Translations under genes and position numbers: made by a program | Source: an uncultured Hyphomicrobiales bacterium | GTDB taxonomy: Bacteria > Pseudomonadota > Alphaproteobacteria > Rhizobiales > Ancalomicrobiaceae | NCBI GenBank assembly: GCA_903930435.1 | Contig: CAIYYN010000008.1 | Location: 186,001-250,000 of the forward strand | Direction: 5' to 3' | Length of the DNA stretch: 64,000 bases | Part shown: positions 14,627 to 24,660 of the stretch, piece after piece | Layout: each line of letters starts with the position of its first letter | Position numbering within the stretch: position 1 is the first letter of the stretch | The notes under the pieces: model-generated | The model's database searches: none | Seen by the model: the letters and a program-made list of their open reading frames with translations, nothing else | What the model was told of the DNA's origin: nothing

Positions 14627-15629
14627 GACGAAGCCTCGGATTGATGGCACCATACAGCACATCAACCAGCAGGTTGATGACGATGACGAATGAGGAAATC
14701 AGCATGATGCCGCCTTGCAGCGAGGGATAGTCGCGTTCATTGATGCTCTCGATCAGCCATGTGCCGATGCCCGGCCAGGAAAAGATGGTCTCGGTCAGCA
14801 CTGCACCAGCCAGCAAGGACCCGATCGCCAGACCAATCGACGTGACCACCGGGATCAAAGCATTTCGTAGCGCATGGAGGCCAACAACACGCAGCGGCGA
14901 CATCCCTTTGGCGCGGGCAGTGCGGACATAGTCTTCAGACAGGACTTCCAGCATTGAGGATCGCGTGATGCGGGCAATGACAGCCAGAGGCACGGTGCCG
15001 AGCACAATGGTCGGCAAGATCAGGTGTTGCGCAGCGTCCCAGACGGCACCCTCCTGACCTGACCACCACGCGTCAAACAGCATGAAGCCCGTTGGCGTAT
15101 CGAAGTAGAATTTGATCGGATCGATCCGGCCGGAAATCGGCGTCAGATTGAGCCATTCCGAGAAAAACATGATGAGCAATAGACCCCACCAGAAAATCGG
15201 CATCGAATAGCCGATCACCGATATGCCCATCACGCCGTGATCGAGCACATTGCCGCGCCGGACGGCTGCCAGCACACCCGCTGGTATGCCAAGCAGGATC
15301 GCGAACATCATGGCGCAAAAGGCGAGTTCAAGCGTTGCTGGAAACAGCGAGAAGAATTCGGTGGCGACAGGCCCGGACGTGCGCAGCGACGTCCCGAAAT
15401 TGCCATGCGCCAATTGCCAGAGGTATTGAAAATACTGGACGATGACAGGCTGATCGAGCCCCATTTCGTGCCGAAGCATCGCCAATCGCTCGGGCGAAAT
15501 GCCGTGCTCTCCGGCCCGCACTTCCACGGGGTCGCCAGGTACAAGACGGATCGCAACGAAGGTCACCAGCGTCAAAGCCAGGAATGTCGGGATCGTCAGC
15601 AAGAGGCGACGCAAGATGAATTTGATCAT
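14616..15629 (-). CDS. Dipeptide/oligopeptide-type ABC transporter permease (DppB-like)
   Basis: A 337-residue inner-membrane permease. It starts with MIKFILRRLLLTIPTFL, the usual first membrane helix of DppB/OppB proteins, then VRLVPGDPVEV-like sequence, and a long periplasmic loop with predicted helices around SGRIDPIKF. The C-terminal half has the coupling motif region (RTARAKGMSPLRVVGLHALRNAL), which is highly characteristic of the family. It is separated by 162 bp from the substrate-binding-protein gene; that gap holds a hairpin (15759-15784) that would lower expression of the membrane parts relative to the binding protein. Confidence 0.9.
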   Translation of the reverse strand: MIKFILRRLLLTIPTFLALTLVTFVAIRLVPGDPVEVRAGEHGISPERLAMLRHEMGLDQPVIVQYFQYLWQLAHGNFGTSLRTSGPVATEFFSLFPATLELAFCAMMFAILLGIPAGVLAAVRRGNVLDHGVMGISVIGYSMPIFWWGLLLIMFFSEWLNLTPISGRIDPIKFYFDTPTGFMLFDAWWSGQEGAVWDAAQHLILPTIVLGTVPLAVIARITRSSMLEVLSEDYVRTARAKGMSPLRVVGLHALRNALIPVVTSIGLAIGSLLAGAVLTETIFSWPGIGTWLIESINERDYPSLQGGIMLISSFVIVINLLVDVLYGAINPRLRHGR

Positions 15630-15758
15630 TGAGTGACCCGACTAAACGGAACGCGGAACGCACCATTCTGGTTCAGTGGAGGTTCGAAGCGAACAGAACA
15701 ACTCTATTACGCCCGCCCCGAAGTGCATTTACAGGTGCGTCTTTTCACGTGAAGAAGA

Positions 15759-15784
15759 GAGCGGGCACCCTGAGATGCCCGCTC
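15759..15784 (-). terminator. Intra-operon hairpin after the binding-protein gene
   Basis: A 9-bp perfect inverted repeat (GAGCGGGCA / TGCCCGCTC) with an 8-base loop lies between the stop of the substrate-binding protein and the DppB-like gene. On the minus strand it is followed by a pyrimidine-rich but not pure-T stretch, so it is more likely an attenuator or RNA 3'-end stabiliser than a full terminator. Such hairpins commonly keep binding proteins in excess over permeases. Confidence 0.55.
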
Positions 15785-15791
15785 CTGATGC

Positions 15792-17393
15792 TTACTTCAG
15801 ATCGACATTGTAGAAGTAATGCGATCCGAGCGGCGAGATCTTGTAACCCTCGACGCTCTTGCGGATCGGCTCATAGACGACTGAATGCGCGATGGTCATC
15901 ATCAATGCATCATTGTGCATGATCACCTGCATCTCCTTGTAGATCTTGGCGCGTTCGGCCTGATCGGAGAGACCGCGAGCCTTCACAAGGTCAGCATTGA
16001 ATGCGTCATCGCAGTATTTGGCGAGGTTCTGGCTCGCCGGCTTCTTCTCGGCGTTACAACCGAACAGGAAGAAGAAGTTGTCGGGATCACCGTTATCGCC
16101 TGTCCAGCCGAGTTGACCGGTCATCGACTCGCCTGCCTGCATGCGCTTGCGGTATTCACCCCATTCGTAGGACTTCAGCGTCGCGTTTACACCAACCTTG
16201 GCAAGATCCGACTGCATGAGTTCAGCGATCCGCTTTGCGTTCGGGTTATAGGGACGCTGTACCGGCATCCACCAGAGATCGATCTCCAGCGGCAATGTGA
16301 TCCCTGATTTGGCCAGCAATTCCTTGGCCTTGGCAGGATCATAAGCATAATCGGTGACGTCGTCGTTGTAACCCCACATGATCGGCGGGATCAGGTTTTT
16401 GGCAGCCTGGCCAGCACCTTGGTAGACTTCCTTGATGATGGTCGGCTTGTCGACCGCCTGGATGAGAGCCTGACGTACCTCAAGCTTGTCCAGTGGTGGC
16501 TTGGTCGTGTTGAATGCCCAGTAAGCGATGTTCAGGCCAGGCGCATGCAGCAGGTTGATGTCTGCATTCTTACCCAGTTCCGCCAGATCTGCCGGACGCG
16601 GGGCGATCATGATCTGGCATTCGTTCTTCTCGATCTTGGCAAGGCGAACCGTCGGATCGGGTGTGATCGCGTAAACGAGATCGTCGATCTTGGCCTTGCC
16701 ACGCCAGTACTCGGGGAACGCCTTGAAGCGGATCACGGCGTCCTTCTGATAGGCGACGAAGGAGAACGGTCCGGTGCCGACCGGGATCTGATCGAATTGC
16801 TCAGGTTTTCCGGCCTTGAGCAGGAAGTCAGCGTATTCCGCCGACTGGATCGACATGAAGTCCATCGCCAGATTGGCAAGGATCGGCGCATTCGGCGACT
16901 TCAGCTTCATCACAACCGTGTAATCGTCCGTCTTGGTGACGGAGTCCAGGCTGGCCGGCATGTCCATGTCCGAGAAGTAGTCGAACTTGCCGCCGGAAAT
17001 CTTGTGATACGGATTGTCATCCTTCCACTGCCGATTAAAGGAAAACAGCACGTCATCAGCGTTGAAATCGCGGGTCGGCTTGAAGCCATTGACGCCGCCG
17101 TGGAATTTAACGCCCTTGCGCAGGTGGAAGGTGAAGGTCAATCCATCCGGCGACACATCCCAGCTCTGGGCGAGACCCGGCTCGGTCTCGGTGGTGCCTG
17201 GCTTGAATTCAGTCAATTGATCAAAAACCGGGCGCGCGGCATCAAACGACGTTCCCGTCGTGTTGAGGGCTGGCGTGAAGTTTTCGGGGCTACCTTCCGA
17301 GCAATACACAAGCGTCTTGGCGCCCGCAGCTGTAGAAGCGAGCAGGGCGGCGGCGAAAAGCGCCACGGCACCTGTCTGGATAAACGACTTCAT
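15792..17393 (-). CDS. Peptide-type ABC transporter substrate-binding protein (family 5)
   Basis: A periplasmic binding protein of about 533 residues and the first gene of the importer operon. It has a signal peptide (MKSFIQTGAVALFAAALL, cleavage near ASTAAGA-KTL), followed by YCSEGSPENFTPALNTTG, a typical start for DppA-like proteins. The SBP family 5 pattern (FTFHLRKGVKFH, NADDVLFSFNRQ) is clear. ATG 17393 is preceded by GAGGAG; an upstream in-frame Met at 17480 has no site. DppA-like members bind dipeptides, haem or other small molecules, so the substrate is not certain. The promoter should lie in the 260 bp upstream, before the terminator at 17653-17686. Confidence 0.9.
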   Translation of the reverse strand: MKSFIQTGAVALFAAALLASTAAGAKTLVYCSEGSPENFTPALNTTGTSFDAARPVFDQLTEFKPGTTETEPGLAQSWDVSPDGLTFTFHLRKGVKFHGGVNGFKPTRDFNADDVLFSFNRQWKDDNPYHKISGGKFDYFSDMDMPASLDSVTKTDDYTVVMKLKSPNAPILANLAMDFMSIQSAEYADFLLKAGKPEQFDQIPVGTGPFSFVAYQKDAVIRFKAFPEYWRGKAKIDDLVYAITPDPTVRLAKIEKNECQIMIAPRPADLAELGKNADINLLHAPGLNIAYWAFNTTKPPLDKLEVRQALIQAVDKPTIIKEVYQGAGQAAKNLIPPIMWGYNDDVTDYAYDPAKAKELLAKSGITLPLEIDLWWMPVQRPYNPNAKRIAELMQSDLAKVGVNATLKSYEWGEYRKRMQAGESMTGQLGWTGDNGDPDNFFFLFGCNAEKKPASQNLAKYCDDAFNADLVKARGLSDQAERAKIYKEMQVIMHNDALMMTIAHSVVYEPIRKSVEGYKISPLGSHYFYNVDLK

Positions 17394-17729
17394 TCGGTTT
17401 CTCCTCTCCCTCTTCGAGGGCATGTGCGGGTTTCGCCCCGCATTCCTCGTATAAGCAGGTTCCGTGCCGTAATTGCCCATGGCAGCAACGACATGACCTT
17501 AGCCAATCAGATACCAACCCAAGCGACTGCGCAATGGGGAAAAGAGATCGTCAAAACCAGAAAATCGAATTTGGGTATGCGCTTTTACCGGGCTGTTGCG
17601 CACATGGACGGCGTCGACACAACGTGTGTAGCGCCCGATGCCGTCGACCTATAAAAAAACCCCGAAAGCCATTTTTGCTTTCGGGGGGTAAATGAGGCGA
17701 AACGTGCTGCAGATGGGGGCGTACGATAA
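17394..17729. other. Intergenic region: leader of the importer operon and 3' end of the RiPP locus
   Basis: The 336 bp hold the untranslated leader of the minus-strand importer operon and the terminator at 17653-17686 belonging to the next minus-strand unit. A long plus-strand frame over this region is not supported by codon pattern or homology. I saw no convincing -35/-10 pair, though the AT-richer part around 17520-17580 is the likeliest promoter site. Confidence 0.5.
17653..17686 (-). terminator. Rho-independent terminator of the RiPP locus
   Basis: A 10-bp perfect stem (CCCCGAAAGC at 17660-17669, GCTTTCGGGG at 17677-17686) with a 7-base loop. On the minus strand the stem is followed by seven T residues (17659-17653). 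It lies 44 bp beyond the stop of the small peptide gene and isolates the radical SAM/peptide unit from the importer operon downstream. Confidence 0.9.
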
Positions 17730-17921
17730 TCAGAACGACTTGCCGACGACAACGCCGACACTCACGCCATCATCCTCAAGCGCCCGTCCATTGACGATCG
17801 CATGCGCGTTCAGTTTCGAAATCACGCGAGGGTCAGAGATCGTGACCTTCCCCGTTGTATCGATCGCAACATCGGCCTTGTTGACTGTAATCTTGGTTTC
17901 TTCCTGCTGCGTACCGCTCAT
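17730..17921 (-). CDS. Small peptide, candidate RiPP precursor coupled to the radical SAM maturase
   Basis: A 63-residue peptide. Its ATG overlaps the stop of the radical SAM gene as ATGA, and a strong terminator follows 44 bp later, so the frame is very probably translated. The N-terminal two thirds (MSGTQQEETKITVNKADV and on to a charged, helix-prone VISKLNAHAI segment) look like a leader. The C-terminus GVSVGVVVGKSF is rich in Val and Gly, contains no Cys, and ends in an aromatic residue. Enzymes of the partner family methylate unactivated carbons, with Val a known target in polytheonamide, so the Val cluster is the natural core; this is inference. I recognise no known precursor family, and the cleavage site is unclear. 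Confidence 0.7.
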   Translation of the reverse strand: MSGTQQEETKITVNKADVAIDTTGKVTISDPRVISKLNAHAIVNGRALEDDGVSVGVVVGKSF

Positions 17922-19936
17922 GACGCCATCTCCATCGGTTTGACGTAATTGGAAAGAGTTTCAGCACTGATCAGTGCCACGTTATCCGGATGTATATTCA
18001 ATATGTTTGTGTCTCCTCCCGCTTCGAGGTCGTCGGCGAAAAGCCTTGAAAGCTTGGCTACAGCCTTTCGCGGTGGCTTGTATTCCCCGTACAGGGGAAT
18101 TGAGACATTCAGGACTTGCGCACCATCTCGCACGAAGACACCCAGAGCTTCGAGAGCGTCCACGACATCCTCGACGGTCGTCCGGTCAGACGTGAATTCG
18201 CGCAAGGTGTCGATGGAGACAACGGCGTCACACTCTTCGAAGATCTTGCTGACGATTCCCGTCAGTCGGAAGATCTTCGGCTCCGCGCCACGGGCGTCGA
18301 ACACAAGGACGCCGTCCTCTGTCGGCAGGTGGAAGAGCGCATAATCGTCGCTGTTGTGTTTCCACTCGTTCAATTCACCGAACAGCTCTTCAACATAACT
18401 CTCGACATGCTGGTCTCCGTCAAATCGGCAGGTGAAATAATAGGCGATCTCAGACACCTGAGTGTCCTCAAGGCCTTTGTAGATGTACCTGTAGGCTGGA
18501 TAAGGCGTGATCTCGCGGACCGAGAAGTCCTCGGGATGCTCGGTGTAGGGACTGAACCGGTCAAATCTGAGCGTTGAAACACCAATCGGCGGTGGCAAAT
18601 GTTTGATGTGTTTTACGAGGCCCGGTAGCGAGTGGTACCACTCGGCCTGCTCGCCGGGGAATCCCGCGAGATAATTCCACTTCGGGTCTATGCCGTACTC
18701 GTGGCACCATTTGAGCAACTGGATATTCTGGAGCGCGGATACACCCTTCCGCATGAGGCGGAGCACATCGGTGCTCAGGCTTTCGATTCCAGGCTGGATT
18801 GATGTCAGACCAGCCTGCCGATAGATTTCAACCTGCTGCTTCTTGAGATTGGCCTTGGTTTCATAGAACAGGCTGATTTCGAGTTTCAGATCGGCCAGCT
18901 TGGGCAGAAACGTCGAGAAATAATTATACGGCATGATATTGTCTGTCGCCGTTAAATGGTTCGTATAGCGACCGTATTTCCCGACAAGAAATTCAATTTC
19001 CTCGACGGCGCGCTGTCCGGATTTCTGACGGAATCCCATCGTCCCGCCGTTGAGACCGCAAAATGTGCAATGGTTCTTCTGGCCCCACCAACAGCCACGC
19101 GAGGATTCAAAGATCAATCGGTGCTCACGCCGATAGTCGGCGTCGTCCGGGTTGGCATCCCGGAAGAAATCATCGAAATCCGGGTAGGGCAGCGTCTCCA
19201 TATTGACCGCCGGGCTATGCCGGAGACTTTTGGCATAGGCATCCGGGTCACGAAGATCGTCGCGGGTAATGAAGCCCGGGGTCGAGGGCTCGCCATTGGC
19301 GAGATTCCGGAGATAGGCGGGGAAAGCCGTATCGCCTTCACCCAGGCACACAGCATCAACGAATGGAAAATTCCGGAGCGTCGCCCAGCCCATCTTGCCT
19401 TCGCAATTGGCGCCACCAAACAGGATTTTCAAATGGCTGTACCGATGCTTAAACTCCTTGGCGAGTGCGAGCGACGCAACATGCTGCTGGAAGGTCGATG
19501 TGAACCCGACGACTTGAACCTCTGACCAGTCGATTGCATCGCAACACTGCTCGATAAATGCTGGAACCCGGTCGCGTAGCGCCGACAGTTTTGCGCAAAT
19601 TTCGTCAACAGCCCGGTTGTCCATCGTCTTCTTATGGGCTGGATCGTTGCCGCGCAGTACCTCCCGGAAAAAGGCCGCATCATTGACAGGATCAGGTCCC
19701 CAAAGCGCCGATGAAAAGACCCATTCCCCAGCAAGATCAACATTTTGCGGTGCGCCACGGGCGAGCTTGTCGTAAATGTCCTTGTCGACGATCCTGGCGA
19801 AGGCGTGATTGAAATACGCGATCTCGACGTCATGGCCGTCGCCTTTCAAGATCGATTTCAGCAGACTGATACCAAGTGATGGCCACGAGGTCACTGCAAA
19901 CGGCATCTGGATGAGTACAACGCGAAACGTCTGCAT
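17918..19936 (-). CDS. B12-type radical SAM RiPP maturase (RiPP C-methyltransferase / rSAM_ocin_1 family)
   Basis: A 672-residue enzyme. Residues 1-230 resemble a cobalamin-binding Rossmann domain (MPFAVTSWPSLGISLLKSIL; ILFGGANCEG; AVCLGEGDTAFP). The radical SAM core follows, with cluster ligands C282, C290 and C293 in SSRGCWWGQKNHCTFCGLNG. The CX7CX2C spacing and flanking WWG and GLNG residues match the family annotated as RiPP maturation radical SAM protein 1. Residues about 540-615 form a small helix-rich domain with an IFEECD segment that may bind the leader peptide. No separate protease, transporter or second modifier lies nearby. The start ATG 19936 is preceded directly by GAGG and then a run of nine G. 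The family is clear; C-methylation of the adjacent peptide is inference. Confidence 0.85.
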   Translation of the reverse strand: MQTFRVVLIQMPFAVTSWPSLGISLLKSILKGDGHDVEIAYFNHAFARIVDKDIYDKLARGAPQNVDLAGEWVFSSALWGPDPVNDAAFFREVLRGNDPAHKKTMDNRAVDEICAKLSALRDRVPAFIEQCCDAIDWSEVQVVGFTSTFQQHVASLALAKEFKHRYSHLKILFGGANCEGKMGWATLRNFPFVDAVCLGEGDTAFPAYLRNLANGEPSTPGFITRDDLRDPDAYAKSLRHSPAVNMETLPYPDFDDFFRDANPDDADYRREHRLIFESSRGCWWGQKNHCTFCGLNGGTMGFRQKSGQRAVEEIEFLVGKYGRYTNHLTATDNIMPYNYFSTFLPKLADLKLEISLFYETKANLKKQQVEIYRQAGLTSIQPGIESLSTDVLRLMRKGVSALQNIQLLKWCHEYGIDPKWNYLAGFPGEQAEWYHSLPGLVKHIKHLPPPIGVSTLRFDRFSPYTEHPEDFSVREITPYPAYRYIYKGLEDTQVSEIAYYFTCRFDGDQHVESYVEELFGELNEWKHNSDDYALFHLPTEDGVLVFDARGAEPKIFRLTGIVSKIFEECDAVVSIDTLREFTSDRTTVEDVVDALEALGVFVRDGAQVLNVSIPLYGEYKPPRKAVAKLSRLFADDLEAGGDTNILNIHPDNVALISAETLSNYVKPMEMAS

Positions 19937-20020
19937 CCTCGCCCCCCCCCAATTCGGGAAAAACCATGGCTTGGTGTCGAACGGAAATCAGGTTCTATAA
20001 CAGTGACTCTACCATCTGTG

Positions 20021-20048
20021 ATTTTATCTGGCTGCACAAAAATAACAA
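20021..20048 (-). promoter_or_regulatory. Promoter-like sequence for the RiPP locus
   Basis: Read on the minus strand, TTGTTA (20048-20043) and TAAAAT (20026-20021) are separated by 16 bp, a fair match to a housekeeping sigma-factor promoter. It would start transcription about 75-80 bp upstream of the maturase ATG at 19936. Confidence 0.4.
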
Positions 20049-20190
20049 GCTTAAAGTTGTATCTAACGTATAAATCAATATATGGTTTTATTTTCTGCCT
20101 TTGGCTTGTAAGCAAAATTCAACAATCACAGAAACGCGTGTTCCAGCAAGAAGATACACCAAATGGGGGTATTCGCCGACAATCTTCGTC

Positions 20191-20206
20191 CATCAATATA
20201 TTGATG
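20191..20206. promoter_or_regulatory. Perfect 16-bp palindrome CATCAATATATTGATG
   Basis: A perfect inverted repeat in the AT-rich region upstream of the RiPP maturase and downstream of the LivM-like gene. A partial match, ATCAATATAT, recurs at about 20076-20085. It could be an operator for the RiPP locus; no local regulator gene is present. Confidence 0.4.
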
Positions 20207-20277
20207 AGCGCGCTACAGTCGCTCCGACGCTTGCGGCAGACCATCATTTAAAAAGATCGCGATGTGCTAAAAAGACG

Positions 20278-21234
20278 CTATCCGTTCAAATGCCTTGAGA
20301 CCGTCGTCCTCTCGCCGAGCAAGCCACGCGGGCGGATCACGATTGTGCCGGACAGGATCAGCCCAATGGCAACGATTTGCAGGGCAGCGGCGCGGGCTTG
20401 CTGCTCGGGCGGGAACACCATGCCCGTGAAAAAGCCGGTCGCGCTCCAGGTCGTCCAGATGAGCGCCGCACCGAGGATGGCGCCGAGATTGTTACCGGAG
20501 CCACCGACGATCAGCATTGTCCAGATCTGGAATGTCACGCTGGAGAGATAGTTGTCGGGTGCAATGAACCCGATGAAGCTGGCGTGGATGGCACCCGACA
20601 GACCCATGATCGCGCCACCGAGCGCGAATGCCTGCAAGCGATAACGGGTCGCGCTTTTGCCAAGCGATGCGGCCGCCCGTTCTTCTTCGCGGATCGCCCG
20701 CAAAACCCGTCCCCACGGACTGCGAACAAGCCGTTCCAGTCCGACGTAGAGAACGACCACAACGGCAACAATCAGCGCCAGATTGGCCAGCCCGAAGACC
20801 GCGGGTTGGGATGCGTAGGTTTCAAACGGGCGGGGGATGAAGGCGATGCCGAAGGAACCGCCCGTCAGGCTCTGCGCATTCAGGGTGACCAGGTGGACCG
20901 TCACGGCAACGCCGAAAGTCGTTATGGCGAGATAGTCTGATCGCAGCCTTAGCGTCGCTGCGCCAACGAGGAAAGAGGCCAGGCCAGACGTAATCATCGC
21001 ACCCAGCCAGCCAATCAGGATGGGCAAGTGAAGCCCGCCGATGTGATCCGTCGTTGCGGGCGTCGTCAGGAGGGCAGATGTATAGGCACCGATGGCGATA
21101 AACCCGGCGATGCCAACATTGAACAGGCCAGTCTGGCCCCACTGAAGATTGAGGCCAAGGCACCCGATGGCATTGATGCCGATGATCGCCAGAAAGAAGC
21201 TGCCGTAGGCGACGAGGCCGAGAAGATCAGGCAT
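20278..21234 (-). CDS. Branched-chain-amino-acid-type ABC transporter permease (LivM-like)
   Basis: An inner-membrane permease of about 318 residues. It carries the LivM pattern: LQWGQTGLFNVGIAGFIAIGAYTSALL early on, and the permease coupling loop WGRVLRAIREEERAAASLGKSATRYRLQAF near two thirds of the length. I start at ATG 21234, which overlaps the stop of the LivH-like gene (TGATG); the in-frame extension to 21315 lies inside that gene. It is the last gene of the minus-strand livGFHM-order unit, whose binding protein is encoded on the other strand at 26124. The ligand is unknown. Confidence 0.9.
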   Translation of the reverse strand: MPDLLGLVAYGSFFLAIIGINAIGCLGLNLQWGQTGLFNVGIAGFIAIGAYTSALLTTPATTDHIGGLHLPILIGWLGAMITSGLASFLVGAATLRLRSDYLAITTFGVAVTVHLVTLNAQSLTGGSFGIAFIPRPFETYASQPAVFGLANLALIVAVVVVLYVGLERLVRSPWGRVLRAIREEERAAASLGKSATRYRLQAFALGGAIMGLSGAIHASFIGFIAPDNYLSSVTFQIWTMLIVGGSGNNLGAILGAALIWTTWSATGFFTGMVFPPEQQARAAALQIVAIGLILSGTIVIRPRGLLGERTTVSRHLNG

Positions 21235-22142
21235 CAGACCCTCTTTCCGAAGAGGCCGGATGGCCTGATGAGCAGGACCGCTATCAAGAGCAGAAACGCC
21301 ACGGCTGCACGCCATTCAGCGCCGATCAGTTGCACCGTGGCAGCCTCCGAGACGCCAACGACCAAGGCTCCGATGATCGCGCCCGGCACGCTACCGATCC
21401 CGCCCAGAATGGCGCTCGCAAACAGCGGCAGCAGCATGTCGAAACCCATATAGGGTCGGATCTGGACCACGAGACCAAGCATTACACCCGACGCACAGGC
21501 CAAAGCTCCGCCGAGCAGCCAGGTGATATGGATCACGTGATCGATGTCGATACCGAGAACGCGGGCAAGAGCCGGGTTTTCGCTGACGGCCCGCATCGAG
21601 CGACCCATGTGGGTCTGGGTCAGGATGAGATGTACCGCCAGTGCGAGAGTTACTGTCATACCCAGCAGCGCCATCTGATCCGGCGTAACGCGGATGCCGG
21701 GAACAACCGGAACAGCGATCTGCAGATCGCGCGAAAAATAGCGGGGACTGGAGGTAAACAGGAATTCCAGCAAGGCTCTCAACGCCATGGACGCGCCGAA
21801 GCTCGCCATGACAACCGTAATCGAAGCTCCCTTGCGACGCAGACGGCGAAAGAGTAGCCGATCCAGCAGGACAGCGAGAAGCCCGGTCAAAACCATCGCG
21901 ATCAGCCCGGCGACGAGCACCCCCCAACCGACCGAAAACGGGCCGTATCCCTCGTTTGACGATGGGGCCAGATATCCAATCAGTCCCGCGGTCAACAGCG
22001 TTGCATAGGCACCCCAGGAGATGAATTCGCCATGGGCAAAGTTAGAAAACCGGAGGATCGAATAGGTCAGGGTGACGCCAATGGCACCCAGACCGATCAT
22101 TGCACCTGCCACAAGTCCGTCAGCAATGAATTGCGGGTTCAA
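21234..22142 (-). CDS. Branched-chain-amino-acid-type ABC transporter permease (LivH-like)
   Basis: A 302-residue permease with the classical LivH start, IGVTLTYSILRFSNFAHGEF, and several membrane helices. The coupling-loop region MRAVSENPALARVLGIDID and the GAIIGALVVGVSEA helix are typical. It overlaps the LivF-like gene by 4 bp upstream and the LivM-like gene by one codon downstream, so the whole unit appears co-translated. Family members import branched-chain amino acids, urea, amides or other small polar compounds. Confidence 0.9.
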   Translation of the reverse strand: MNPQFIADGLVAGAMIGLGAIGVTLTYSILRFSNFAHGEFISWGAYATLLTAGLIGYLAPSSNEGYGPFSVGWGVLVAGLIAMVLTGLLAVLLDRLLFRRLRRKGASITVVMASFGASMALRALLEFLFTSSPRYFSRDLQIAVPVVPGIRVTPDQMALLGMTVTLALAVHLILTQTHMGRSMRAVSENPALARVLGIDIDHVIHITWLLGGALACASGVMLGLVVQIRPYMGFDMLLPLFASAILGGIGSVPGAIIGALVVGVSEAATVQLIGAEWRAAVAFLLLIAVLLIRPSGLFGKRV

Positions 22143-22891
22143 GGGCGGGCCTCCGTTGCGGGTAGGCGTGCTTTCGAAGCTCCGAGGTAGAGCGAGGCGA
22201 CAATCGGGTCGTCGGCCAAGGTCGCCGCCGCCCCTTCGTGGGCATTACGCCCCTCGACCATGATGGTGGCGCGGTCGGCGATCCCGAGCGCTGCCCGGAC
22301 ATTCTGCTCAACAAGCAGGATGCTGATCCCCGTTGCCCGGATCTCGAGCAACTTCTGAAACACGATCTCGACCAGCTTCGGCGACAGGCCTGCCGAGGGT
22401 TCATCCAGCATGAGAACTGTTGGCGAGACGATCAAGGCACGCGCAACCGCGAGCATTTGGCGCTGCCCCCCTGAGAGCCTGCCAGCCAATAACCGACGTT
22501 GCCGGGCGAGGTCCGGGAAGAAGCCATACAGCTCGTCGACGCGAACGAGGGCAGACTTCGACCGCATCACGCCAGCGGCAAGGCGCAGATTGTCATCGAC
22601 GGTCATGGTGGCAAAGACGTTCTCGGTCTGGGGAACAAACGCCAGTCCATTTCCGATCATCCTATGCGCCGGTACGTCGGTGATATCCCTGTCGCCAAGG
22701 CAGACCTGTCCCGATACTTTCGGCACCAGACCAGCAATCGCCTTGATCAGCGTTGATTTGCCAGCACCGTTCGGGCCGAGAACCGTAGCGATTTCGCCTG
22801 CGTTCACGTGGATCGATGCGCCGTTCAGGATCGGCAGACCCGGTTCATAACCCGCGACAAGATTCTCGACGCGAAGCACTGTCGTTTTCAT
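22139..22891 (-). CDS. Branched-chain-amino-acid-type ABC transporter ATP-binding protein (LivF-like)
   Basis: A 250-residue ATPase. It has Walker A (LGPNGAGKST), Q-loop (FVPQTENVFATMTV), signature (LSGGQRQMLAVARAL), Walker B (VLMLDEPSAGLSP) and the ILLVEQNVRAAL H-loop that marks LivF. Its start overlaps the LivG-like stop by 4 bp. It energises the LivHM permease together with LivG. Confidence 0.92.
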   Translation of the reverse strand: MKTTVLRVENLVAGYEPGLPILNGASIHVNAGEIATVLGPNGAGKSTLIKAIAGLVPKVSGQVCLGDRDITDVPAHRMIGNGLAFVPQTENVFATMTVDDNLRLAAGVMRSKSALVRVDELYGFFPDLARQRRLLAGRLSGGQRQMLAVARALIVSPTVLMLDEPSAGLSPKLVEIVFQKLLEIRATGISILLVEQNVRAALGIADRATIMVEGRNAHEGAAATLADDPIVASLYLGASKARLPATEARP

Positions 22892-23730
22892 ACCTTGGCT
22901 CCACCAAGATAGGCTTCGATCACGTCGGGATCGCGGACCACCGTTTCGGGAGTTCCCTCAACAAGCAGCTTACCGGACGCCATCACGAACACATGCCGGC
23001 AAAGCCGGGAGACCAGATCCATATTGTGCTCGATGATCAGGAAAGTCATCCCGCGGCTATTCAAGGCTCCGATACGTTCGATGATGATTTCGAGCAGGCT
23101 CGGATTGACCCCTGCGGCGGGCTCATCAAGCAGGACGATCTCGGGCTTTGCCATCAGCACGCGGGCCAGTTCCAGCAATTTGCGCTGGCCGCCGGACAGC
23201 ACTCGTGCTGGCTCGTGGGCGAGATGCTGGAGAGTCACGAATTCCAGCAGCTCCATCGCCTCCGTGAAATTGCGGCGCTCTTCCGCGGCAACAAGACCGG
23301 GTCTGAACCAGTTTGGCCAAATGACTTCACCGGATTGCCCCTGCTTGCCGAGCATGACGTTCTCGACAAGGCTCATGGCAGCGAATGGTCGCGGGATCTG
23401 AAACGTGCGTCCGAGGCCAGCCCGGATCCGCGCATGTGCAGGCTCGGCTTGCACCGCGCGGCCCTGCAACCGGATCTCACCCGCTGTGGGCTTCAGATCA
23501 CCCGCCAACATGTCGAACATCGTGGTTTTTCCGGCACCATTTGGTCCGATCAAGCCGACAATCGCACCTCGCTGAACCGAGATCGACACACCGTCGACCG
23601 CAGCGATCCCGCCGAAATGCTTGGACAGGGACAGCGTGCTCAGAATTGGCGAGGCACCCGTTGCCTGGGTGCCTGTCGATCCGGAAGGCCGATCTTGCAT
23701 TGCTGTCGCCGTCAACGTTTGATCTTTCAT
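22888..23730 (-). CDS. Branched-chain-amino-acid-type ABC transporter ATP-binding protein (LivG-like)
   Basis: A 280-residue ATPase and the first gene of the minus-strand transporter unit. Walker A (IGPNGAGKTT), the LivG-specific insertion with RTFQIPRPFAAMSLVENV, signature (LSGGQRKLLELARVL), Walker B (IVLLDEPAAGVNP) and H-loop (FLIIEHNMDLV) are all present. The first ATG (23730) lies inside operator-like copy 1 and has no clear ribosome site; ATG 23700 is an alternative giving 270 residues. The overlap of start codon and operator suggests the repressor can act directly at translation-start-proximal DNA. Confidence 0.9.
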   Translation of the reverse strand: MKDQTLTATAMQDRPSGSTGTQATGASPILSTLSLSKHFGGIAAVDGVSISVQRGAIVGLIGPNGAGKTTMFDMLAGDLKPTAGEIRLQGRAVQAEPAHARIRAGLGRTFQIPRPFAAMSLVENVMLGKQGQSGEVIWPNWFRPGLVAAEERRNFTEAMELLEFVTLQHLAHEPARVLSGGQRKLLELARVLMAKPEIVLLDEPAAGVNPSLLEIIIERIGALNSRGMTFLIIEHNMDLVSRLCRHVFVMASGKLLVEGTPETVVRDPDVIEAYLGGAKV

Positions 23731-23741
23731 CTTTGATCAAA
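23718..23741. promoter_or_regulatory. Operator-like 24-bp element, copy 1
   Basis: The element ends in the perfect 10-bp palindrome TTTGATCAAA (23732-23741) and begins with the half-site TTTGATC (23718-23724). It overlaps the LivG-like start codon. A second copy with one mismatch lies exactly 100 bp away at 23818-23841. Both lie in the divergent region beside the GntR gene, their likely binding protein. Confidence 0.65.
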
Positions 23742-23817
23742 GTTCCATAGGTTCAACGCTAGTGGCAGTGCGTGGACGACGCAAGCCTCCATTTCAGTCA
23801 TTTTCGTCTGATTGATT

Positions 23818-23841
23818 TTTGATCTTCCATCTTTGATCAAA
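23818..23841. promoter_or_regulatory. Operator-like 24-bp element, copy 2
   Basis: This copy differs at one base from copy 1 and again ends in TTTGATCAAA (23832-23841). It is 34 bp upstream of the GntR start codon, a position suited to autorepression. The 100-bp spacing is close to a whole number of helical turns, so two bound dimers could face the same side and loop the DNA. Confidence 0.65.
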
Positions 23842-23874
23842 CATTCGTAGGCTGGCGCCATCTGTGAGTAGAGC

Positions 23875-24660
23875 GTGAGGTCTCGGGTCGTGGCGCGAGT
23901 GGCAAGGCAAGCCGAAACTCTCAATTATTCCATTGGCTTGACGCCGGATCGTCAAGTTGCCAATCCAGCTCTGACACCTGTTGCCCGTGATACCGTCCAG
24001 ACCCAGGTGTATCGTGAGCTCCGCCGGGCGCTCATGCATGGTCGCTTCACGCCGGGGCAGGTTCTCGGAATCGTGGACCTGTCGAGGTCGCTGAACACGA
24101 GCACCATGCCGGTCCGCGACGCCTTGTCGCGGCTGATTTCGGAGCAGGCGCTTGAAGCCATGCCAAACCGGTCCGTCCGGGTGCCTTTGATCAGTGTCGA
24201 ACGCTTGGCCGACCTGCGACGGGCCCGCACGCTCATCGAAGGTGAAGCCTTGGCGCTTGCACTGCCACGACTGACGAGGGAGGACGTTGACGCCGCCCGG
24301 GCAGCCGTCCGCGACTATGATGCAGCGATCGCGGCGCGCGGAACTTGCGCCATCGATGAAGAACTCGACGCAAATTATGCGTTCCACCTGAGCCTCTATG
24401 CCGCTTCCGGCTCGGCAATCCTGATCCCCTTCATCGAAAGCCTGTGGCTGCAATCCGGCCCCATCATTCGGGCGGCAACGCTCGCGTTTGATCCGACCAG
24501 TACCGTGTCCGGCCCGCACTACCATACGGAGATTGTTGACGCGCTCGAGGCTGGCGACGAGGCCGGTACGCGCGCTGCATTGGAGCGCGATATCGGTCGC
24601 GCCTTCGATCTGCTGATCCATCAGTTAAGCGCCGCCGAGGCCGGAGGAGGGCAGATATGA
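23875..24660 (+). CDS. GntR family transcriptional regulator (FadR/FCD type)
   Basis: A regulator of up to 261 residues. The winged helix is at about residues 40-110 (VYRELRRALMHGRFTPGQVL; MPVRDALSRLISEQALEAMPNRS in shorter parts). The FCD ligand domain follows, with LRRARTLIEGEALALALPRL, the FHLSLYAASGS helix and the HYHTEIVDALEAGD region bearing metal-binding His residues. The GTG at 23875 is the furthest start; a later one is possible because the first 35 residues are unusual. It is the first gene of the plus-strand unit and divergent from the transporter genes. It probably binds the two operator-like copies; the inducer would be the transported compound or a product. Confidence 0.85.
   Translation: MRSRVVARVARQAETLNYSIGLTPDRQVANPALTPVARDTVQTQVYRELRRALMHGRFTPGQVLGIVDLSRSLNTSTMPVRDALSRLISEQALEAMPNRSVRVPLISVERLADLRRARTLIEGEALALALPRLTREDVDAARAAVRDYDAAIAARGTCAIDEELDANYAFHLSLYAASGSAILIPFIESLWLQSGPIIRAATLAFDPTSTVSGPHYHTEIVDALEAGDEAGTRAALERDIGRAFDLLIHQLSAAEAGGGQI

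Follow-up and report, generated by a model that had tools for sequence, protein, structure and literature searches.

Does a 63-residue reading frame coupled to a predicted B12-dependent radical SAM enzyme encode the substrate of that enzyme, and what kind of peptide system would the two genes form? Enzymes of the TIGR03975 family are thought to methylate unreactive carbons, which is a valuable reaction in peptide chemistry, and the well-studied examples are located in large clusters. Here, we report the analysis of a two-gene locus within a 64,000-nucleotide stretch of DNA (the window) from an uncultured Hyphomicrobiales bacterium. From its sequence, the locus is quite probably a compact RiPP unit, in which a precursor with a leader and a Val-rich core would be C-methylated by the coupled B12 radical SAM maturase.

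Locus layout

The two-gene unit comprises three features, all on the minus strand:

17918..19936 (-), maturase open reading frame, 672 amino acids, a TIGR03975 RiPP radical SAM C-methyltransferase (profile and Pfam matches, AlphaFold2 model)
17730..17921 (-), putative precursor open reading frame, 63 amino acids, ATGA-coupled to the maturase (codon score, homologues beside seven related maturases)
17660..17686 (-), intrinsic terminator ending the two-gene unit (10-bp stem, 7 G-C pairs, T-run with T7 tail)

An earlier note on this DNA had described a 672-residue maturase with a CX7CX2C motif, an ATGA overlap with a 63-residue frame, and a strong terminator shortly after the peptide. The first two were seen again by direct reading of the sequence, the overlap of maturase stop and peptide start was found at 17918-17921, and the terminator lies ~43 nt past the peptide stop. 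The 63-residue frame scored 0.41 bits per codon; segments taken from window genes scored 0.35 ± 0.12 when read in frame and −0.33 ± 0.12 when read off frame. GC content of the locus was 0.54 (window, 0.59). An Rfam scan (15000-24000) and a tRNA scan gave no match, and no second precursor copy was found elsewhere in the source genome.

Maturase

The NCBIfam model TIGR03975 (rSAM_ocin_1) matched the maturase at 615.2 bits (cut-off, 281.85; E = 1e-184) over residues 6-611 (model positions 1-604 of 606), so the earlier assignment to the RiPP maturation radical SAM/C-methyltransferase family was right; the window enzyme extends ~60 residues further than the model at its C terminus. Four features were placed within it:

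19313..19552 (-), B12-binding domain, residues 129-208 (PF02310, 35.3 bits; cut-off, 32.1)
18641..19105 (-), radical SAM core, residues 278-432 (PF04055, 54.4 bits, above cut-off)
19058..19093 (-), CX7CX2C cluster-binding motif, C282/C290/C293 (direct reading)
18107..18337 (-), probable C-terminal PqqD/RRE-like winged-helix domain, residues ~534-610 (AlphaFold2 fold and profile-profile match)

The enzyme has the B12-binding and radical SAM domains and the CX7CX2C motif that mark TIGR03975 C-methyltransferases. The motif lies in SSRGCWWGQKNHCTFCGLNG (residues 278-297), and its three cysteines (C282, C290, and C293) are invariant across 19 aligned sequences. An AlphaFold2 model (pLDDT, 85) had OxsB, TsrM, TokK, and CysS as its nearest structures, and the sequence profile of the maturase likewise reached TokK, OxsB, and CysS.

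In the model, residues 534-610 fold as three strands, three helices, and two strands. A profile of 19 maturase C termini matched a PqqD profile (built from the host's relatives) with 82-90% probability in profile-profile comparison, while segments outside the domain and 40 column-shuffled versions all gave ≤0.4%. A Foldseek search with the domain returned generic winged helices only (no match at E ≤ 0.001), and Pfam PqqD did not match the maturase; for these two reasons, the domain is graded as a probable, not a proven, RRE-like (PqqD-like) recognition domain for the leader.

Small peptide and its relatives

The peptide divides into two segments of interest:

17811..17894 (-), conserved leader segment, residues 10-37, KITVNKADVAIDTTGKVTISDPRVISKL (alignment with relatives)
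17733..17768 (-), putative Val-rich core, residues 52-63, GVSVGVVVGKSF (placed by its position after the conserved leader)

In Pfam and NCBIfam, the peptide had no match at a meaningful score; the sole loose-threshold match, OsmC (17.9 bits; cut-off, 138), was judged to be chance. NCBIfam leader models of Nif11 and the NHLP clan matched neither the window peptide and four relatives (E up to 10) nor two further relatives (E up to 1). The suggestion that the peptide falls outside both known leader types was borne out in these searches, which place it in none of Nif11, NHLP, and Os1348. A tblastn search of plasmids gave three chance matches only, and the leader had no description in the open-access literature searched.

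Seven other genomes have a homologous small open reading frame downstream of their maturase, at a distance of ≤~50 nt:

L032, L033, L036, Caulobacteraceae MAGs, small frame after the maturase
L034, L050, Ktedonobacter, two or three precursor copies after the maturase
L051, an alphaproteobacterium, small frame after the maturase
L057, a Niallia plasmid, small frame after the maturase (hypothetical protein WP_338473323.1)

The earlier note would have abandoned its reading had homologous maturases lacked a conserved small frame; the frame is there in all seven, and the alignment of a common leader with divergent C termini supports the proposal that the peptide is the precursor. The leader consensus spans ~28 residues (roughly K.I.(L/I/V)...(F/I/V).I...G.(V/L).I..P......L, then a divergent tail), with G24 invariant. 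Pairwise likeness between the peptides is weak (window versus L036, E = 0.004). Leave-one-out profiles were searched against 9,762 six-frame open reading frames (490 kb, whole window included). The window peptide was the top nontraining match (E = 5.2e-4; next nonfamily match, 0.43), and L036 (8.7e-9), L034 (4.4e-7), L051 (0.0054), and L033 (0.02) were likewise recovered. L032 was the best untrained match in its own search, albeit at E = 0.78, and the Niallia peptide was not recovered among the 9,762 frames; its membership, resting on position and visual alignment, is plausible. Judged on these comparisons, the leader family is secure for most members and plausible for L032 and L057. Because a common, previously unlisted leader (no match in NCBIfam or Pfam) occurs on peptides beside related enzymes of three bacterial phyla, this looks like a new leader family of ribosomal peptide substrates, in line with the new precursor class that had been raised as a possibility.

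Val/Ile-rich tails occur also in the Ktedonobacter peptides (GVGVAVIW and GIGVAVVF) and behind other leaders beside TIGR03975 enzymes (EVTVSVGVKF in L029/L030; also L037 and L039). These tails were noticed after selecting for them, so that the observation carries no statistic, and their recurrence is suggestive support for GVSVGVVVGKSF as the core. Caulobacteraceae peptides have a Pro-rich stretch followed by a terminal PGV, and the C terminus of the Niallia peptide (AAIWQDII) is not Val-rich.

Proposed modification

We infer that the two genes work as a pair. The small gene would yield a precursor whose leader is N-terminal and whose C-terminal core is rich in Val, and the maturase would grip the leader, probably via its C-terminal PqqD-like domain. 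Using methylcobalamin and a 5'-deoxyadenosyl radical, it would transfer methyl groups onto unactivated carbons, most likely at the Val beta-carbons of GVSVGVVVGKSF. Leader removal and export would then fall to enzymes encoded elsewhere. PoyC, for which CX7CX2C is reported, is reported to methylate valine in a peptide and to produce 5'-deoxyadenosine (PMC5682303), and by analogy with it, C-methylation of Val in GVSVGVVVGKSF is the most likely reaction. It is unlikely that the maturase instead performs some other B12/radical SAM reaction on this precursor (e.g., a crosslink, ring contraction, or epimerisation). Its structural neighbours do include nonmethylating B12 radical SAM enzymes such as OxsB, and the cores of L032, L033, L036, L051, and L057 have no Val run, but the enzyme exceeds the cut-off of the C-methyltransferase subfamily (TIGR03975) by a wide margin, and its CX7CX2C is the motif reported for the bottromycin and polytheonamide peptide C-methyltransferases (PMC5682303).

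Gene neighbourhoods

In the window, no protease, exporter, or second tailoring gene adjoins the pair, and the neighbouring genes belong to dpp and branched-chain amino-acid transport operons. These surroundings would also suit a small protein that assists the maturase as a chaperone or docking subunit, with another cellular peptide or protein as the true substrate. We consider such a role quite improbable, since a conserved leader with a divergent C terminus is the usual precursor pattern, the two or three tandem Ktedonobacter copies retain the leader and differ near their ends, and the maturase appears to have a recognition domain of its own. The dpp operon was rejected as a dedicated transporter, because all 14 family relatives without the maturase have dppA and the terminator separates this gene from the pair.

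The maturase is the sole neighbourhood gene common across phyla, and no protease or transporter is common to all loci. Caulobacteraceae neighbours are general genes (hisG, hisS-like genes, and a two-component system). On the same strand after the Ktedonobacter precursors stand three further genes:

L034:8851-12133 and L050:9415-12685, M16 peptidase, 186-amino-acid protein, and MFS transporter

These three genes plausibly form a cleavage/export set, making the Ktedonobacter loci a candidate complete cluster of this leader family. The description of the locus as a minimal system accordingly stands for the window, the Niallia plasmid, and the Caulobacteraceae and fails for Ktedonobacter, with its two or three precursors and nearby M16 peptidase and MFS transporter. 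Nor are two-gene TIGR03975 loci unique, as Ruegeria has an Os1348-type peptide with a maturase.

Distribution

A tree built from 36 maturases placed the window enzyme in a group with three Caulobacteraceae enzymes (support, 100/99), joined next by L051 and Niallia (98/93) and then by Ktedonobacter and Azospirillum L035 (95/94). The peptide was present in 8 of the 9 rows of the 95/94 group, the exception being L035; the flanking DNA of Azospirillum L035 or Paracoccus L059 yielded no such leader, and the leader profile had no match next to any other maturase examined (for some of these, the flank covered only 1.5 kb). Other TIGR03975 maturases have other precursor kinds: Nif11 in Mesorhizobium, the Os1348 type in Ruegeria and Azospirillum B4, and a pheganomycin-type precursor in Streptomyces. 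Since the peptide is confined to one group and other kinds occur elsewhere, leader type follows enzyme clade, which is the association that the earlier note had proposed looking for.

Several other loci had frames of their own upstream of the maturase. L029 (1095-1355) and L030 encode an 86-amino-acid, weakly Os1348-like peptide whose end resembles the window core and whose leader differs. In Azospirillum TSO22-1 (L035:3500-7935), the upstream frames resemble a second, tandem B12 radical SAM enzyme. A Paracoccus denitrificans plasmid (L059:4571-4963) has an unrelated 130-amino-acid frame with no NCBIfam match; its N-terminal half is charged, and its core is Cys-rich, with repeated CVIQQC/CVISQC-like units.

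Among genus and family relatives, only the source genome had the maturase above cut-off (absent from 14 same-family genomes), and in the relatives a different gene stands upstream of dppA, from which we take the maturase-peptide pair to be accessory. The same two facts, with the lower GC content of the locus (0.54 versus 0.59), would fit a decaying, nonfunctional remnant of a larger, horizontally acquired RiPP cluster. However, both frames are intact, the catalytic residues are conserved, and an equivalent two-gene form occurs in Caulobacteraceae and Niallia, which makes decay a shade less probable still than a partner role. That the 63-residue frame arose by chance, the maturase acting alone or with a distant precursor, is scarcely credible: the frame has no meaningful Pfam or NCBIfam match, but its codon score fits in-frame genes, it is ATGA-coupled and followed by a terminator, and homologues with a conserved leader stand in the equivalent place beside related maturases in seven genomes.

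Comparison with known systems and significance

A functional precursor-maturase pair would have partial counterparts among known systems. PoyB/PoyC (polytheonamide) and BotRMT1-3 (bottromycin) are, like the window maturase, of the B12-dependent radical SAM C-methyltransferase type with CX7CX2C and act on Val, Pro, Phe, and other residues of a RiPP core (PMC5682303, PMC11285071). Precursors in their clusters are of the proteusin or follower type, and several tailoring enzymes are present (PMC11285071), whereas the window has one enzyme, one peptide, and an unrelated leader. The plasmid of Ruegeria sp. B32 shares the two-gene layout (an Os1348-family NHLP-clan peptide and a TIGR03975 maturase), but its peptide lies upstream and matches NF038399; the window peptide, by contrast, is downstream of its maturase and has no such match. 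On a Streptomyces globosus plasmid, a pheganomycin-type cluster with TIGR03975 also has a small precursor adjoining the maturase; unlike the window locus, that cluster is large, with a peptide ligase, dpg genes, and a different precursor. The same plasmid locus (L058) encodes a glycine amidinotransferase and dpgA-C beside the TIGR03975 enzyme. Within TIGR03975 itself, the window maturase matches at near full length, and the leader type of its partner peptide is not in NCBIfam or Pfam. As read from sequence, the locus is a known enzyme family joined to a leader family absent from the searched libraries, in minimal two-gene form.

More speculatively, and with rather less than even confidence, the locus may represent a horizontally mobile, self-contained two-gene RiPP class across Pseudomonadota, Chloroflexota, and Bacillota. 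Such a class would be defined by a leader of its own and by one B12 radical SAM C-methyltransferase that has a recognition domain built in. Its products would be short, multiply C-methylated peptides (e.g., containing tert-butylglycine) that depend on the host's general proteases and export or else work within the cell. If the proposed pairing is true, a pair of one enzyme and one short peptide that brings a recognition domain of its own would be handy for learning about leader recognition and site choice, and the leader could be converted to a search profile that may reveal further members missed by current leader models.
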